The notes under the pieces: generated by a model
Databases searched by the model: none
What the model was told of the DNA's origin: nothing
Seen by the model: only the letters and a program-made list of their open reading frames with translations
Shown: positions 6,442 through 50,137 of the stretch, in pieces
Layout: each line of letters begins with the position of its first letter
Numbering within the stretch: the first letter of the stretch is position 1
Source of the DNA: Gemmatimonas sp.
GTDB taxonomy: Bacteria; Gemmatimonadota; Gemmatimonadetes; Gemmatimonadales; Gemmatimonadaceae
Direction: 5' to 3'
Assembly (NCBI GenBank): GCA_025361705.1
Contig: JANYJW010000021.1
Span: forward strand, 124,001 to 188,000
Length of the DNA stretch: 64,000 nt
Made by a program: the position numbers and the translations under genes

Positions 6442-6456
6442 GGGGTTGGTGGTAGG

Positions 6457-6540
6457 TGATGGCGGATGGCGGATGGCGGATGGCGGATGGCAGACGGCAG
6501 ACGGCAGATGGCGGATGGCGGATGGCGGATGGCGGATGCC
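6457..6540. repeat. Heptad array B (GGATGGC), twelve units
   Basis: Twelve consecutive 7-mers fill 6457-6540: TGATGGC, four GGATGGC, two AGACGGC, AGATGGC, three GGATGGC and GGATGCC. There is no unit-length slip. The array ends two bases before the stop codon of the M15-type peptidase at 6542 and starts 15 bases before the start of the DUF2281-like gene. Frames through it give repetitive peptides, but none has the look of a real gene. Confidence 0.95.
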
Positions 6541-6541
6541 A

Positions 6542-23302: not shown

Positions 23303-24286
23303 TCACGCTCCCGCCTTCGCCTTCTTCACTTCCTCTGCCAGTACAGGCAGAACGTCCATCACGTCGCCCACGATGCCGTAGTCGGCCACCTTGAAGATGG
23401 GCGCTTCCTTGTCCTTGTTGATCGCGACGATCGTCTTGGACGTGCGCATGCCGGCCAGGTGCTGGATGGCGCCCGAGATGCCGCATGCCACGTACAGATC
23501 GGGGCTCACCAAGCGGCCCGTCTGGCCAATCTGATCCGAGTGCGGCCGCCAGCCATCGTCGGTGACGGCGCGCGTGGCGCCCACCGCCGCATTGCCGAAC
23601 GCCGCGGCGAGATCTTCGACGAGCGTGAAGTTGGCCGCTTCCTTGAGGCCGCGCCCGCCGGCGATGATCACCGGCGCCTCGCCCAGGTCGAGCTTGCCGC
23701 CGGCCGCCTTCTCGGTCAGCGTCACCTTCACGCGCACGGCAGACGGATCGCCCACCACGGCGAGCGCTTCGACGGCACCGGCCTTGGCGTGCTCCACCGG
23801 GAGCACCGCGCCGGCGCGCAGCGAGATCAGGGCCGGCGTGGCGTTGAGCACAAAGCGCTGGACGATCTTGTTGGTATATCCCGGATGGGCCACAGCCACG
23901 CGGTCGGCCGTCACGGTGAACTCGGAGACATCGGACGCGTACGCCAGCTTCATCCGCGCGGCGACGCGCGCCACGAGGTCGTGCCCCTGCGCGCTGGCTG
24001 CAAAGAACGCGGCGCGATAGCCGCTGCCCAACCGGGCCGCCAGTGTCGCCGTGAGCGCTTCGGGATTGTAGTTGGCAAAGGCGTCGTGTTCGATCACGAG
24101 CACCACGTCGGCGCCGTGCGCGGCCAGCCTCGCCGCGTGCTGGGCGACGCCCGGACCACCGGCAAGCACGGCGTGCACCTGGCCGCCCGTGGCATCGGCC
24201 ACCGTGCGGGCGGCCGTGACGGTCTCGAGTCCGCACCGGCGCAGGTCGCCCAGTCGCGTTTCAGAGAATGCAAGAATGTTGGTCAT
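23303..24286 (-). CDS. etfA: Electron transfer flavoprotein alpha subunit
   Basis: 327 residues. The C-terminal FAD domain carries the family blocks [34 protein letters not shown] and the FAD-binding [14 protein letters not shown], ending with [22 protein letters not shown] collects electrons from acyl-CoA dehydrogenases. The start overlaps the etfB stop (ATGA). The glutaryl-CoA dehydrogenase-like gene at 28651 and the membrane Fe-S oxidoreductase at 19792 are the natural donor and acceptor in this window. Confidence 0.97.
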
Positions 24287-25038
24287 CAGAGTACCTTCGC
24301 CTCTTCCTTGAGGAGGCGGACGAGTTCAGGCACGGCGTCCTTTCCCTCACCGACGATGCGCCCCGCGGCCCGTTCGGCCGGAAGCTCCATCTTCTCGAGC
24401 TGGTAGGTGATCGCGCCAAGCTGCGCCGGCCGCACATCCATCGGCTTCTTCTTGGCAGCCATGATCCCCTTGAGCGAGGGATACCGCGCCCGGGCGATGC
24501 CCTCATCGATGGTGACGACGGCCGGCAGCGGACACTCGATGAGTTCGTACGCCCCCTCGAGTTCGCGCCGCGCCCTTACCACGCCGCCCTCGACGTTGAG
24601 CTGCGAGATGGCCGTGATCACCGGCAATCCGAGCAACTCGGCGATGAACGCGCCCGTAGAGCGGTTCTGCGTGTCCACGGCCATGCGCCCACAGAGAATG
24701 AGATCGTAGCCGCGGTCCTTGAGCTCCGCGGCGAGCGCGGTGGCGATGGCGAGCCCGTCGCTCACCGGCGCGTCGTGCTTGAGTTGCACCGCGCGGTGTG
24801 CGCCCATCGACAGCGCCTTGCGCAGCGTCTCCTGCACCACGTCGGGGCCGAGCGAAATGACCGTCACCTCGCCGGCGCCCAGCTTTTCGGTGATCTGAAT
24901 GGCCACCTCGGCAGCGTAGCCGTCGAAGTCGGACATGTCGAATTTGAGCCCCGCCTCGTCAATGCCCGTGCCCGATGCGGCAATCTTGAAGCGCCCTTCC
25001 ATGTCAGGAACGCGCTTGATGCACACGGCCAATTTCAC
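24286..25038 (-). CDS. etfB: Electron transfer flavoprotein beta subunit
   Basis: 250 residues, normal length. N-terminal MKLAVCIKRVPDMEGRFKI and the block QTAQ-equivalent region QNRSTGAFIAELLG with AISQLNVEGG identify EtfB, which binds AMP and docks the partner dehydrogenase. First gene of the minus-strand ETF operon; its start is divergent from the SDR gene and the 225-base spacer contains two heptad arrays in opposite orientation. Confidence 0.96.
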   Translation of the reverse strand: MKLAVCIKRVPDMEGRFKIAASGTGIDEAGLKFDMSDFDGYAAEVAIQITEKLGAGEVTVISLGPDVVQETLRKALSMGAHRAVQLKHDAPVSDGLAIATALAAELKDRGYDLILCGRMAVDTQNRSTGAFIAELLGLPVITAISQLNVEGGVVRARRELEGAYELIECPLPAVVTIDEGIARARYPSLKGIMAAKKKPMDVRPAQLGAITYQLEKMELPAERAAGRIVGEGKDAVPELVRLLKEEAKVL

Positions 25039-25094
25039 CGTGAAATCCCCCAGTGAGAGTGCGCCCGAAAGCTACACCGTTGGCGTGGGGGGCG

Positions 25095-25122
25095 GCAGAC
25101 GGCGGACGGTAGACGGTGGAAG
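25095..25122. repeat. Heptad array C (GTAGACG orientation)
   Basis: GCAGACG, GCGGACG, GTAGACG and GTGGAAG run in register. It lies about 55 bases upstream of etfB. A second array 100 bases away (25221-25262) is in the opposite orientation, so the two form an imperfect inverted pair. Confidence 0.85.
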
Positions 25123-25220
25123 ACTGCCGGCGTTGGTTTCGCACGGTGAGGTGGGGAGTGGCCCTGATTGGAGCGTACCCGCATCTTCTCCCCTGCCGAG
25201 GCAGCGCCCACGGCATACGA

Positions 25221-25262
25221 TCTCCCGTCTACTGTCTCCCGTCTCCCGTCCACCGTCTCGCA
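25221..25262. repeat. Heptad array D (CCGTCTC orientation), abutting the SDR start
   Basis: Six units: TCTCCCG, TCTACTG, TCTCCCG, TCTCCCG, TCCACCG and TCTCGCA. The array ends one base before the ATG of the SDR gene, so it occupies the whole ribosome-binding region; no Shine-Dalgarno is visible there. Confidence 0.88.
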
Positions 25263-25263
25263 A

Positions 25264-26067
25264 ATGCCCCTCGCCCTGATCACCGGCGCTTCCGCCGGCA
25301 TCGGTCGCTCCTTCGCCGAGGCGCTCGCCCGGCGCGACTACGATCTCATTCTCGTGGCGCGCACCACGGAGCGCATCGAACGGCTCGCGCGCGAGCTGGC
25401 CGACCGCCACGCGGTGCGCGCCGAGGCCTGGACGTCAGATCTCTCGTCAGACGCCGGGCGCGAGGAGGTGGCCGGCCGCATCGCGGCGCTCCCCCGGCTC
25501 GACCTGCTGGTCAACAACGCCGGCTTCGCCACCAACGGGAAGCTGGCAAAGATCCCGCTTGACCCGCAGATGGAGATGCTGCGCCTGCACATGCTTGCGC
25601 CCATGCGCCTGTCGACGGCCGCATTGCCCCGCATGATCGAGCACGGGGCAGGCGGCATCATCAACGTCAGTTCCATCGCCGGCTTCCTCTACGGCCCCGG
25701 CAACGTGAACTACTCGGCGACCAAGGCGTACCTCACGAGCTTCTCACTTGGGCTCGACACCGAGGTGCGCGGCGCAGGCATCCGCGTGCAGGCACTGTGC
25801 CCCGGCTTTACGCACACCGAGATCCACGACGACATGCCACACGTCAAGCAGCAAATTCCGTCGTGGCTCTGGATGCAGGCCGATGACGTCGCCGAGATTT
25901 CGCTGCGGCAGCTCGCGGCGGGCGGTGCCGTCATCTGTGTGCCGGGCACGCGCAACCGGATCTTGCGGCGGCTCCTGTCGCTGATGCCGCATGCGCTGCG
26001 GCGGCGGATGGCGGTGCGGCGGAAGAAGCGGGAGAGGATAGCGCAGACAAGAAACGGTAGACGGTAG
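25264..26067 (+). CDS. Short-chain dehydrogenase/reductase (SDR)
   Basis: 267 residues of the classical SDR family: cofactor loop TGASAGIGRSF (residues 7-17), NNAG, catalytic Ser in INVSSIAG and the YSATK motif (Tyr-x3-Lys). The absence of an acidic residue at the end of strand two and the presence of VARTTER favour NADPH. Substrate unknown; the sequence resembles the large DltE/YqjQ-like group. Both ends are embedded in heptad arrays: array D touches the start, and the last codons and TAG stop are supplied by array E, giving the basic tail RNGRR. Its neighbours are unrelated and on the opposite strand. Confidence 0.88.
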   Translation: MPLALITGASAGIGRSFAEALARRDYDLILVARTTERIERLARELADRHAVRAEAWTSDLSSDAGREEVAGRIAALPRLDLLVNNAGFATNGKLAKIPLDPQMEMLRLHMLAPMRLSTAALPRMIEHGAGGIINVSSIAGFLYGPGNVNYSATKAYLTSFSLGLDTEVRGAGIRVQALCPGFTHTEIHDDMPHVKQQIPSWLWMQADDVAEISLRQLAAGGAVICVPGTRNRILRRLLSLMPHALRRRMAVRRKKRERIAQTRNGRR

Positions 26068-26167
26068 ATGACAAAGCGTTCCTCAGCCGTCGTCCACCGC
26101 CTACCGTCAATCGCCTACCGTCAATCGCCTACCGTCTACCGTCTACCGTCTACCGTCTACCGTCTTC
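26057..26167. repeat. Heptad array E, two opposed blocks between convergent genes
   Basis: GTAGACG and GTAGATG (26057-26070) contain the SDR stop codon. After 20 bases an eleven-unit block in the opposite orientation follows (26091-26167): CGTCCAC, CGCCTAC, CGTCAAT, CGCCTAC, CGTCAAT, CGCCTAC, four CGTCTAC and CGTCTTC. It ends one base before the TAG of the M28 peptidase. The two blocks could pair as a hairpin, so this may double as a bidirectional terminator. There is no spare sequence between array and genes. Confidence 0.95.
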
Positions 26168-26168
26168 C

Positions 26169-27842
26169 CTACGGCTTCGGGGCCAGGCTTTTCTCGCGAA
26201 TCGCCTTGAACTCGCTGCCCGGTTTCCACTCGGGGAACTTGCCGGCATTCGCCACGCGGAAGCCGATGGCGAAGTCGAACTGCAGGTCCTGCGCGGCGCC
26301 CGACAGGTCCCACGTCGGCTTGATGTCGTCGCTCGGCTTGTGGTAGTCGTTTGCCACGTAGTCGGCGCGCGTCCGCATGCCGAACGTGGAGTCCTTGCCG
26401 ACAAACGTGATGCCCGCCCCCGGATAGAACGCCGGCACGCCAACCTTCGCGAAGTTGAAATGGTCGGAGCGGTAGTAGTACCCCTTCTCGGGTTCCGCAT
26501 CGGGCCGCAGAATGCGATTGCCCTGCTCGGCCGCGGCCGCCTTCGCGTAGTCATCCAGGTCCGAGGCGCCGTAACCCATCACGACCACGTCGGACGTGCG
26601 ACCCCAGGTGTTGAGGCCGTCCAGATTGATGATGGCAAGCGTCTTGTTCAGCGGGTACAGCGGGTTGGTGGCGTAGTACTGCGACCCGAGAAGGCCCTGC
26701 TCCTCTGACGTGACGGCCACGAAGAGGATGGAGCGCAGCGGCTTCACCTTGGCGGCCATGAAGGCCTTGGCCAGATCCAACAGGCCGGCGACACCCGTCG
26801 CGTTGTCCGATGCGCCGTTGTAGATCGAGTCGCCGTTCACCTTGGCGCCGACGCCGAAGTGATCCCAGTGCGCATTGTAGATCACGAACTCCTTCCGCAG
26901 CGTCCGGTCACTGCCCTCGATCAGCCCGACGAAATTCCGCGAATCCACGGTGCGCAGCGTGTTCCTGAGCTCGATGCTCGCCGTGACACCGAGCGGCACG
27001 GGCGCGAACTCCTTGGTCGCCGCCTTTGCCTTGAGTGCGTCGAAATCCTGGCCACCCATCGCAAAGAGCGCCTTCGCGCGATCGAGCGTGATCCAGCCTT
27101 CCACCTCGCTGCGCCCCATGTTCTTGTCGGCCGTCACGAGGTCGAACTGTTCAGCGGTCTTGCCCTGCACGACCGTGAACGGATAGCCGGCGGGGGCGGT
27201 CTCGTGCACGATCAGCACGCCTGCCGCCTTGTGCTTCATGCCCTGCTCGAACTTGTACGTCCACCGCCCGTAGTACGTCATCCGCGGCCCGCCAAACACC
27301 GCCGTGTCGGCCACGGGGGGATCGTTCACGAGGACCACCATGGTCTTCCCCGTAAGGTCGACGCCCTTGAAGTCGTCCCAGCCGTACTCAGGCGCCTCGA
27401 CGCCGTAGCCGACGAAGACGAGTTCCGACTTGGCAAGGGCCGCGGTCGGCGCCACGTGCTTGGTCCACGCCACGAAGTCGTCGCGCCACTTGAGCGTCGC
27501 CGACTTTCCGCCCGCGGCGAACGTCAGCGTCGGGCTGTTGGTCACGGTGATCCCGACGAGCGGAACCTTCTGCGTGTAGCTGCCGTCCGGGTTGCCGGGC
27601 TTCAGCCGCATCGCCATGAACTGCGCTTCGACGTACGCGGCCGTCTTGTCCTCGCCGGCCGTGCCGGGCCCGCGCCCGAGCAGCGAGTCGGCGCCGAGCA
27701 CACGGATATGCCGCATAAGGGTCGCCGTGTCGATCACGGCCAGCGACTCGGCAGGCACCGGCGCCTTCGTCGGGTCGCCGGCGCACGCGACGCCCAGAAC
27801 CGCGGCGAGCAGGAGGGCGTGATGCTGTTTGAACGTTTTCAT
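26169..27842 (-). CDS. M28-family zinc metallopeptidase, lipoprotein
   Basis: 557 residues with a lipoprotein signal (MKTFKQHHALLLAAVLGVAC, Cys at 20). A PA-type insert (LVFVGYGVEAPEYGWDDFKG) precedes the catalytic domain. The zinc ligands and catalytic residues of family M28 are visible: AHWDHFGVG, SDNATGVAGLLDLAKAF, TSEEQGLLGSQYYA, NLDGLNTWG and YRSDHFNFAKVG. Such enzymes are co-catalytic two-zinc aminopeptidases. ATG 27842 has AGAGG about ten bases upstream; the longer frame from further upstream adds residues before the signal and is rejected. Likely a peptide-scavenging enzyme on the cell surface. Confidence 0.92.
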   Translation of the reverse strand: MKTFKQHHALLLAAVLGVACAGDPTKAPVPAESLAVIDTATLMRHIRVLGADSLLGRGPGTAGEDKTAAYVEAQFMAMRLKPGNPDGSYTQKVPLVGITVTNSPTLTFAAGGKSATLKWRDDFVAWTKHVAPTAALAKSELVFVGYGVEAPEYGWDDFKGVDLTGKTMVVLVNDPPVADTAVFGGPRMTYYGRWTYKFEQGMKHKAAGVLIVHETAPAGYPFTVVQGKTAEQFDLVTADKNMGRSEVEGWITLDRAKALFAMGGQDFDALKAKAATKEFAPVPLGVTASIELRNTLRTVDSRNFVGLIEGSDRTLRKEFVIYNAHWDHFGVGAKVNGDSIYNGASDNATGVAGLLDLAKAFMAAKVKPLRSILFVAVTSEEQGLLGSQYYATNPLYPLNKTLAIINLDGLNTWGRTSDVVVMGYGASDLDDYAKAAAAEQGNRILRPDAEPEKGYYYRSDHFNFAKVGVPAFYPGAGITFVGKDSTFGMRTRADYVANDYHKPSDDIKPTWDLSGAAQDLQFDFAIGFRVANAGKFPEWKPGSEFKAIREKSLAPKP

Positions 27843-27930
27843 ATGGGACGTACCTCTTGGGAAGTCGATGGATTGCATCAGAAAGCCCGCCAATGCTGCG
27901 TCGTTCCGCCTCGTGATGACCGGTGGAAAT

Positions 27931-32675: not shown

Positions 32676-33271
32676 CGGATCTTCTCCTGCCTTAGCGGGG
32701 GGCGCTTCGGCTGCAGGGGCTTGAAATGCGGCGAGTGCGGGCTGTGGCAACTCGCGCACAGCAGGTACTGCTTGGCACCCGACCACGACCCTGTGCGCTT
32801 GCCGTGCTCGCCGGCCTTCCAGTTGCGCAGCGTCGGACCGTGGCACTGCCCGCACAGGCGGTACGACTCGGTGAAGTCGATCAGCCGACCATCGGCGAGG
32901 TGCAGCTTGTCGCGATGCTGCGCATCGTGGCAGTCGAGACACCAGCGGTTCTTCTCGTCGTGCTTCAGGACGATGTCTTCGTGAAACTCGACGGCGTGCG
33001 GGACGCGATTCACCTTGTCGCCGGGCTTGTGGCACTCGGAGCACGGAAAGACGCCGTCGGAAAAAGGCGGCGGCGCGACGGGGAAGAGCGCCGTGGCGGG
33101 CGTGGCGGGCGTGGCGGGCGTGGCGGGCGTGGCGGGCGTTCCGGCAGCCTTGGCCGCGCCTTCAGCGCCCTTGCCATACCTGGCACCCGGATCCTGCACG
33201 GGGCGGCACGCTACCGTCAGCAGCAACGCCGCGCTTGCCGCAACGGCCAGTCGGACTGCTCGTATCCGCAT
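32672..33271 (-). CDS. Tetraheme c-type cytochrome, lipoprotein
   Basis: 199 residues. A signal with lipobox TVAC (Cys near residue 22) is followed by a low-complexity TPATPAT stretch and then four CxxCH heme motifs: CSECH, CLDCH, CGQCH and CASCH. Extra His residues upstream can give bis-His ligation. It is the first gene of the unit cytochrome-ferredoxin-NrfD and is the likely periplasmic electron exit or entry. The TPAT linker is encoded by a 9-base tandem repeat, so its length may vary between strains. Confidence 0.9.
   Translation of the reverse strand: MRIRAVRLAVAASAALLLTVACRPVQDPGARYGKGAEGAAKAAGTPATPATPATPATPATALFPVAPPPFSDGVFPCSECHKPGDKVNRVPHAVEFHEDIVLKHDEKNRWCLDCHDAQHRDKLHLADGRLIDFTESYRLCGQCHGPTLRNWKAGEHGKRTGSWSGAKQYLLCASCHSPHSPHFKPLQPKRPPLRQEKIR
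33092..33136. repeat. 9-base tandem repeat in the cytochrome linker
   Basis: CGTGGCGGG is repeated five times without change. It codes for the Thr-Pro-Ala-Thr spacer between lipid anchor and heme domain. Being a multiple of three it can change length without frameshift. It is distinct from the 7-base arrays. Confidence 0.9.
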
Positions 33272-42171: not shown

Positions 42172-42174
42172 GGG

Positions 42175-42210
42175 CACCGCCCGTGGCACCGCCCGTGGCA
42201 CCGCCCGTGT
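42175..42210. repeat. 12-base tandem repeat upstream of the met promoter
   Basis: CACCGCCCGTGG is present three times (the last copy ends in T). It is immediately upstream of the -35 of the met promoter and 75 bases before the S9 peptidase ATG. It could be a binding site for a regulator of either gene. Confidence 0.75.
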
Positions 42211-44702: not shown

Positions 44703-44992
44703 CTGAACGCGCCATCGTGCCGCGTGCTGCCGGCGATGCGCCCGGCGGCACGCCACAGGTGGCCGAGCGCGTCGCCGAGCGCGTCGCCGAGCGCGTCGCC
44801 GAGCGCGTCGCCGAGCGCGTCGCCGAGCGCGTCGCGCGGGTGATCCGGCGCATCATCGGCGTGCCCGACTACGACGCCTATGTGGCGCACATGCGCGCAC
44901 ATCATCCGGGGCAGCACCCGATGTGCGAGCGCGACTTTCAGCAGGAGCGCCTCACGGCGCGGTACTCGCGCCCCGGCAACCGCTGCTGCTGA
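44699..44992 (+). CDS. YbdD/YjiX-family small protein with AERV repeat
   Basis: 97 residues. The C-terminal 48 residues match the YbdD family: IGVPDYDAYVAHMRAHHP, PMCERDFQQERLTARY and the final RCC. YbdD proteins partner CstA-type peptide/pyruvate transporters. Residues 20-46 are instead a heptad-like AERV tetrapeptide repeated six times, coded by a 12-base DNA repeat, which could form a coiled coil. The cstA gene is 6.5 kb away; here it is coupled by ATGA to a secreted peptidase gene, so peptide digestion and uptake may be linked. Confidence 0.85.
   Translation: MTERAIVPRAAGDAPGGTPQVAERVAERVAERVAERVAERVAERVARVIRRIIGVPDYDAYVAHMRAHHPGQHPMCERDFQQERLTARYSRPGNRCC
44762..44833. repeat. 12-base tandem repeat, six copies, in the YbdD-like gene
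   Basis: GCCGAGCGCGTC is repeated six times exactly, encoding Ala-Glu-Arg-Val units. Copy-number change would keep the frame. Exact identity of the copies suggests recent expansion. Confidence 0.95.
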
Positions 44993-50094: not shown

Positions 50095-50096
50095 CC

Positions 50097-50124
50097 GGGA
50101 GACGGTAGAGGGTAGACGGTAGAA
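50097..50124. repeat. Heptad array H (GGTAGAC)
   Basis: GGGAGAC, GGTAGAG, GGTAGAC and GGTAGAA lie in register in the 43-base spacer between the Gfo/Idh gene and the symporter start, i.e. inside an operon, within the symporter's ribosome-site region. Confidence 0.85.
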
Positions 50125-50137
50125 CGTGGGCTCCGAA

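Follow-up and report, generated by a model that had tools for sequence, protein, structure and literature searches.

The window, by which we mean the whole stretch of 64,000 nucleotides analysed here, came from a Gemmatimonas sp. genome of 2.97 Mb in 71 contigs. It contained an SDR gene between etfB and an M28 peptidase gene, and tandem arrays of 7-nt units (heptads) were found on both sides of the SDR gene. The features of this region were as follows.

24286–25038, minus strand: etfB, electron transfer flavoprotein beta subunit (PF01012, E 1.6e-37), divergent from the SDR gene
25069–25074, minus strand: TAGCTT, probable -10 box of etfB, read by eye and kept in the genus relatives in a ten-spacer alignment
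25088–25122, plus strand: array C, purine-form heptads GGNNGACGG, the outward reading from etfB
25158–25187, plus strand: GTGGCC-N18-CATCTT, a promoter-like core for the SDR gene, lying between array C and array D
25219–25260, plus strand: array D, pyrimidine-form heptads CCGTCNN, filling the SDR leader
25264–26067, plus strand: SDR gene, 267 aa (PF00106, E 5.5e-44)
26050–26070, plus strand: purine arm of array E, containing the SDR stop TAG (26065–26067)
26091–26167, plus strand: pyrimidine arm of array E, pairing with the purine arm in a predicted RNA hairpin
26169–27893, minus strand: M28 peptidase gene (PF04389, E 4.3e-42), convergent to the SDR gene

As the first-pass annotation had described, arrays C and D were opposed, array E consisted of two opposed blocks and the SDR stop codon fell within array E. 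Array D had been placed one base before the ATG; its last heptad ended at 25260 and the ATG occupied 25264–25266, giving a gap of 3 nt. The M28 stop (complement CTA, 26169–26171) abutted the pyrimidine arm of array E. The SDR protein contained 267 aa, against 255–259 aa in nine orthologs, and its C-terminal residues NGRR formed a heptad-encoded tail extension. The missing ribosome site was correctly noted, as no Shine-Dalgarno sequence was present, but this is ordinary here: an SD-like word stood before 22% of the 340 starts sampled, compared with 10% for a control offset.

The two-unit heptad had 30 matches in the window (at most 3 mismatches), whereas 100 dinucleotide shuffles gave a mean of 4.12 and a maximum of 10. 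Elsewhere in the window, a GATGGCG-type array (6455–6541) adjoined a start and the next stop, a GACGGTA-type array (50096–50125) filled a 43-bp operon spacer, and an array of a distinct TACGCTN type was present at 398–427. Perfect 9-bp and 12-bp tandem repeats at 33092–33139, 44762–44835 and 42173–42209 were probably within coding sequence.

The SDR locus in related genomes

Orthologs of the SDR gene (73–82% identity) were found in nine of the ten other genus members, where they adjoined etfB in all nine and M28 in eight; in L041 the SDR gene had a neighbour other than M28. The sole genus genome devoid of the SDR gene (G009, 78% complete) was devoid of etfB too. In five more distant genomes etfB and the SDR gene were adjacent and divergent, with spacers of 94–163 bp containing no heptad array by eye. 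SDR orthologs in the same place and free of arrays were present in some relatives as well as in the five outgroup genomes. The first-pass annotation had offered, as one of two readings, that the gene and its arrays moved together. This reading fails, since the etfB-SDR order was kept in all nine genus orthologs, where the heptads were of another type or absent, and again in the array-free outgroups; the gene did not travel with its arrays, which came later. To judge from this order, the arrays would have arisen when etfB, SDR and M28 already stood in their present arrangement. The arrays around the SDR gene were all of a related GACGG type in their own genome, as would suit a cassette in which gene and arrays arrived together. 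However, the gene order is older than the arrays, and similar arrays occupy spacers elsewhere in this genome; we regard the cassette as refuted by the gene order in relatives, its residual probability being negligible.

In the window and in L037, L039, L040, L042 and L043, the SDR-M28 spacer was predicted to fold into strong hairpins whose stems were unrelated (z from -3.75 to -8.16), so that six of the seven folded elements had z of -3.75 or lower. For element E of the window z was -3.75, with 1 of 200 shuffles equally good. The spacer of L036 folded no better than its shuffles (z -0.56). In L035 and L038 the SDR-M28 spacers were short and free of arrays, and the hairpin would therefore be dispensable there. 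Element E did not have the form of an intrinsic terminator, as no T-run was found downstream and a scan gave no terminator-like site. Between 24900 and 26400, Rfam gave no match at gathering score and only sub-threshold miRNA matches.

In the etfB-SDR spacer, the core GTGGCY-N18-CATCTT/CATTCT was found by script at the same 24-nt offset in seven of ten genus genomes, and by eye in the other three, where the first hexamer was GTGGAC, GTAGCC or GTGGAT (1–2 changes). A sigma-70 consensus scan gave no promoter at this core. The core was present 49–140 nt upstream of the SDR start codon, and heptad or ATC-rich arrays filled the leader between them. The ATC-rich arrays, with a period of about 13 nt (7+6), replaced the GAYGG heptads within about 75 nt upstream of the SDR start in four genomes (L036, L038, L040, and L042). 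Four of the five outgroup genomes contained a -10-like hexamer 11–13 nt before the ATG (by eye), as in leaderless genes, and a TANNNT peak at -12 before starts was found in most sampled genomes. On the basis of these hexamers and this peak, the array probably converted the SDR start from a leaderless one to one preceded by a long leader rich in pyrimidines.

Distribution, polarity and pairing of the heptad arrays

The own-genome sample (G000) comprised the window and 40 further stretches, 858,936 bp in all. The genus was further sampled with G001 (400 kb), G010 (114 kb), G006 (100 kb) and G005 (180 kb). Outside the genus, G032 and G025 (200 kb each) represented two further genera of the same family, and G056 (400 kb) represented another family of the order. 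Genes were called with a simple hexamer caller, so starts are approximate, and arrays were detected by a motif-free lag test on spacers of at least 25 bp. Period-7 arrays were found in 68 of 395 spacers of G000, where the control periods 5, 6, 8, 10, 11 and 13 gave 4, 17, 2, 4, 4 and 12 spacers, respectively. In G056, period 7 was found in 36 of 198 spacers and periods 5, 6 and 8–13 in at most 6; a few G056 rows in this count were runs of N, which were removed for the later count of pair order. G001 was poor in arrays (10 of 210 spacers in 400 kb, little above other periods). The density in G000 was 117 per 100 kb of spacer versus 5 per 100 kb of gene, and the commonest units were GATGGCA, GATGGCG and GACGGTA.

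The pattern GAYGGNN x3, derived from the window, gave 87–675 matches in each of the 11 genus genomes. It matched 26 of 49 non-genus genomes, only four of them with at least 50 matches; the reversed pattern is itself of heptad type and is unusable as a control for these counts. The arrays at the SDR locus are part of a system of intergenic heptad arrays that extends through the genus, and they do not belong to the SDR gene, which is an ordinary gene; its framing by arrays is a habit of the genus in many spacers. The median distance of the arrays was 2 nt for stop codons and 17 nt for start codons, and 3′ ends had no fewer arrays than 5′ ends. The other reading of the first-pass annotation, that arrays had invaded the tightest spaces, holds in part, in that arrays are characteristic of spacers throughout the genus and lie very close to stop codons.

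The arrays were polar. Among 133 genus arrays, 10 were too central to be assigned to a gene end and were left out; in 111 of the remaining 123, the strand reading away from the nearest gene end was purine-rich (68 of 75 arrays at stops and 43 of 48 arrays at starts). In G056 the same held for 44 of 50 arrays, with 2 unassigned. Where a genus spacer contained a pair of arms, the purine arm preceded the pyrimidine arm in 30 of 31 cases, the single exception being L065 4576–4710. Counted without gene calls, the orders purine-pyrimidine and pyrimidine-purine were found 40 and 2 times in the genus and 14 and 0 times in G056, respectively, whereas the control periods 6 and 9 showed no order in the genus (10:11 and 10:15). 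A generic base skew at gene ends was rejected as the source of the polarity, since array-free stops were 0.46–0.55 purine outward in six of seven samples. The exceptions were in G010, with one array-free stop bin at 0.61 (only 28 stop ends) and one start bin at 0.64; array-free starts otherwise showed a weak purine-outward skew of about 0.51–0.57. Lone arrays also followed the rule (63 of 70 spacers). A descent of lone arrays from pairs was rejected, as the signal of a residual partner arm did not exceed that of the direct-copy control (11 of 63 for both).

Period-11 arrays in purine-then-pyrimidine order were present in spacers of G001 (L084–L103) and G006 (L150–L154), two per genome, and this order may not be confined to period 7.

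The opposite arms of one spacer were alike (permutation p 0.003 for 22 pairs of G000 and 1e-4 for 14 pairs of G056), and more alike than when compared with arrays from other stretches (MWU p 2e-7 for G000 and likewise for G056). The heptad types of G056 were GATGGAT, GACTAGA, GAAGGGG, GAAGCGA and GATGACA, mostly common to both arms among the pairs listed. Arrays flanking one gene were weakly alike (p 0.02 and 0.08), and pairing of leader and trailer within one mRNA was rejected on this difference from the same-spacer arms. When 58 orthologous spacers were compared between G000 and G005 or G010, arrays were present in both genomes for 11, in G000 alone for 6, in the other genome alone for 7 and in neither for 34, so that array presence was correlated (Fisher p 0.0011). 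Eight comparisons with G001 and G006 stood outside this test (neither 4, other only 1, G000 only 3). In all 11 orthologous spacers with arrays in both genomes the commonest unit differed.

The position of arrays in leaders and beside promoters, together with a copy number that varies among species, raises the idea that copy number acts as a phase-variation switch for neighbouring genes. We consider it improbable, as the neighbours are housekeeping-like (ETF, SDR, M28) and the arrays are no rarer at 3′ ends; in addition, the heptamers of Xanthomonas were not linked to phase-variable gene classes in the available part of that report (Rehm et al., 2015, PMC4692102).

The fold set contained 34 paired elements, taken from G000, G010, G006, G005 and G056, in which 20 nt or more separated the arms. 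The whole element folded better than its shuffles (z < -2) in 30 of the 34, and the core alone did so in 17. The arrays could be selected transcript structures, in which purines after stops and pyrimidines before starts form hairpins or terminators and open leaders, so that the arms need only match. The retention of SDR-M28 hairpins despite unrelated sequence is consistent with this, as are the full-element z below -2 in all eight convergent pairs of this set and the closeness of stop-proximal arrays to the stop. Against this, pairs were also present in divergent spacers with a promoter-like core between the arms. An ordinary hairpin was often there already: six of the eight convergent cores and 13 of 30 array-free convergent spacers had a fold z < -2, and ordinary terminator-like hairpins thus often lie within the arms. 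The lack of a T-run after element E and the two orthologs without the element also weigh against it, and we hold selection of transcript structures to be a less likely alternative.

REP/BIME palindromes are intergenic, lie near gene ends, have a fixed sequence and are associated with a RAYT transposase. The paired arrays resemble them as intergenic palindromes at gene ends; unlike them, they had no fixed sequence and no transposase here. In a mobile, REP-like origin a RAYT-type transposase would move a transposable palindrome whose two ends are the paired arrays. Their palindromic, intergenic and dispersed nature would suit this, and some heptads contained GTAG or GGAG, the tetranucleotides of REP elements. 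However, PF01797 (RAYT, Y1_Tnp) was absent from nine of the 11 genus genomes, G000 included, and a RAYT gene was present in the other two. The 16 inter-arm cores of G000 gave no non-self match and had no common sequence, and the heptad type differed from locus to locus. With neither a RAYT gene nor a palindrome sequence common to the copies in G000, a REP/RAYT element is largely refuted and a mobile origin is very improbable. In G056 (L189, L191, and L192) a repeated palindromic element, CCCTGAGCGAAGCGAGG..., was found between heptad arms, with several like copies in 400 kb.

Origin of the arrays and known heptamer systems

The best-supported origin of the arrays is slippage combined with copying of hairpin arms, and we judge it somewhat likelier true than false that these are intergenic heptamer repeats grown in pre-existing spacers by these two processes. 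The arrays would be long simple sequence repeats whose unit measures 7 nt; they would have grown in the spacers once the etfB-SDR-M28 order existed, lengthening by 7-nt replication slippage. The spacer would fold into a hairpin and one arm would be copied onto the other by template switching, which would keep the arms matched while the heptad type turns over. Selection would tolerate arrays that reach as far as the edges of genes. Where genes end, the arm pair would form a hairpin beside the stop codons, with a possible role as an auxiliary terminator or 3′-end protector. At the SDR 5′ end, the array would have come to lie between the promoter-like core and the start, giving a pyrimidine-rich leader without Shine-Dalgarno sequence.

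The excess of period 7, the purine-pyrimidine order, the matched arms, the hairpins with unrelated stems predicted for six of seven SDR-M28 elements, the kept place with changed type and the dissimilar cores of G000 count in favour of slippage with arm copying. Against it, these processes do not predict the purine-outward polarity, lone arrays were polar without a detectable partner arm, the L036 spacer folded no better than its shuffles, L035 and L038 have array-free SDR-M28 spacers and G001 had few arrays. Addition of units at double-strand-break ends would give polarity but would, by reasoning only, leave the old spacer outside the arms; it was rejected because the conserved promoter-like core lies between the arms in the etfB-SDR spacer.

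Heptamer repeats of Xanthomonas (GGGAATC) were reported as 70 and 75 convergent pairs in two genomes; we infer that convergent there corresponds to the purine-then-pyrimidine order used here. Their G-rich strand is non-coding near starts and coding near stops, overlap with stop codons was described, and sequence and length vary while the gene neighbours are constant; in the part of the report available, a role was not found (Rehm et al., 2015, PMC4692102). The arrays studied here resemble these Xanthomonas and Nostoc repeats, GGGAATC and GGGGA(C/T)T, in the 7-nt unit, the several tandem units and the dispersed intergenic location, and the convergent pairing with its strand rule was also found here. 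Unlike them, as far as described in PMC4692102, the present arrays included many heptad types per genome, mostly GAYGGNN, in another phylum, and their arms were matched spacer by spacer. The Nostoc-type heptad showed no enrichment over its reversed control in two cyanobacterial genomes and one Luteibacter. The commonest units of G000 contained no run of three G; since the heptads mostly lack GGG runs, no G-quadruplex argument applies, and G-runs define the published G4 sequences rather than the wider heptamer-array class that holds the present arrays.

TAACTGA heptamers of Beggiatoaceae, cyanobacteria and Bacteroidetes are located upstream of starts (MacGregor, 2015, PMC4679880). Like the present arrays, they are 7-nt direct repeats close upstream of start codons, mostly without Shine-Dalgarno sequence. 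Unlike them, they were described in the part of that paper available as one fixed heptamer, in direct repeats with a single indirect one, and as little used at 3′ ends in Beggiatoaceae. The idea of slippage for 7-nt units was cited by MacGregor (PMC4679880), and among the long simple sequence repeats of prokaryotes described by Mrazek, many genomes have 7-nt units as their most frequent class (cited in both PMC4679880 and PMC4692102). Slippage was proposed for that class, as it is here, whereas no rule of polarity or paired arms is given in those two accounts of it. A literature search on Gemmatimonadota with heptamer or tandem repeats, in a coverage that excluded most subscription journals, gave no relevant paper.

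The present arrays are a variant of the published heptamer arrays, and the combination of free sequence with fixed polarity is the part to follow. Heptamer arrays had been reported as curiosities from scattered bacteria and, in the accounts available, each set consisted of a single fixed family of sequences. In the present genomes the sequence was free, with several types per genome that were replaced between species, and the period, place, polarity and arm matching were kept. A general gene-edge process acting in several phyla, indifferent to sequence and laying down 7-nt units with the purine strand outward, is a tentative and rather unlikely possibility. If it were true, genomes would be shaped by a mechanism of a new kind, namely a dedicated activity that works in steps of 7 nt and keeps one polarity at the borders of genes. 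With the constrained features separated from the unconstrained ones, the frequent 7-nt unit of bacterial repeats becomes a directly testable question.
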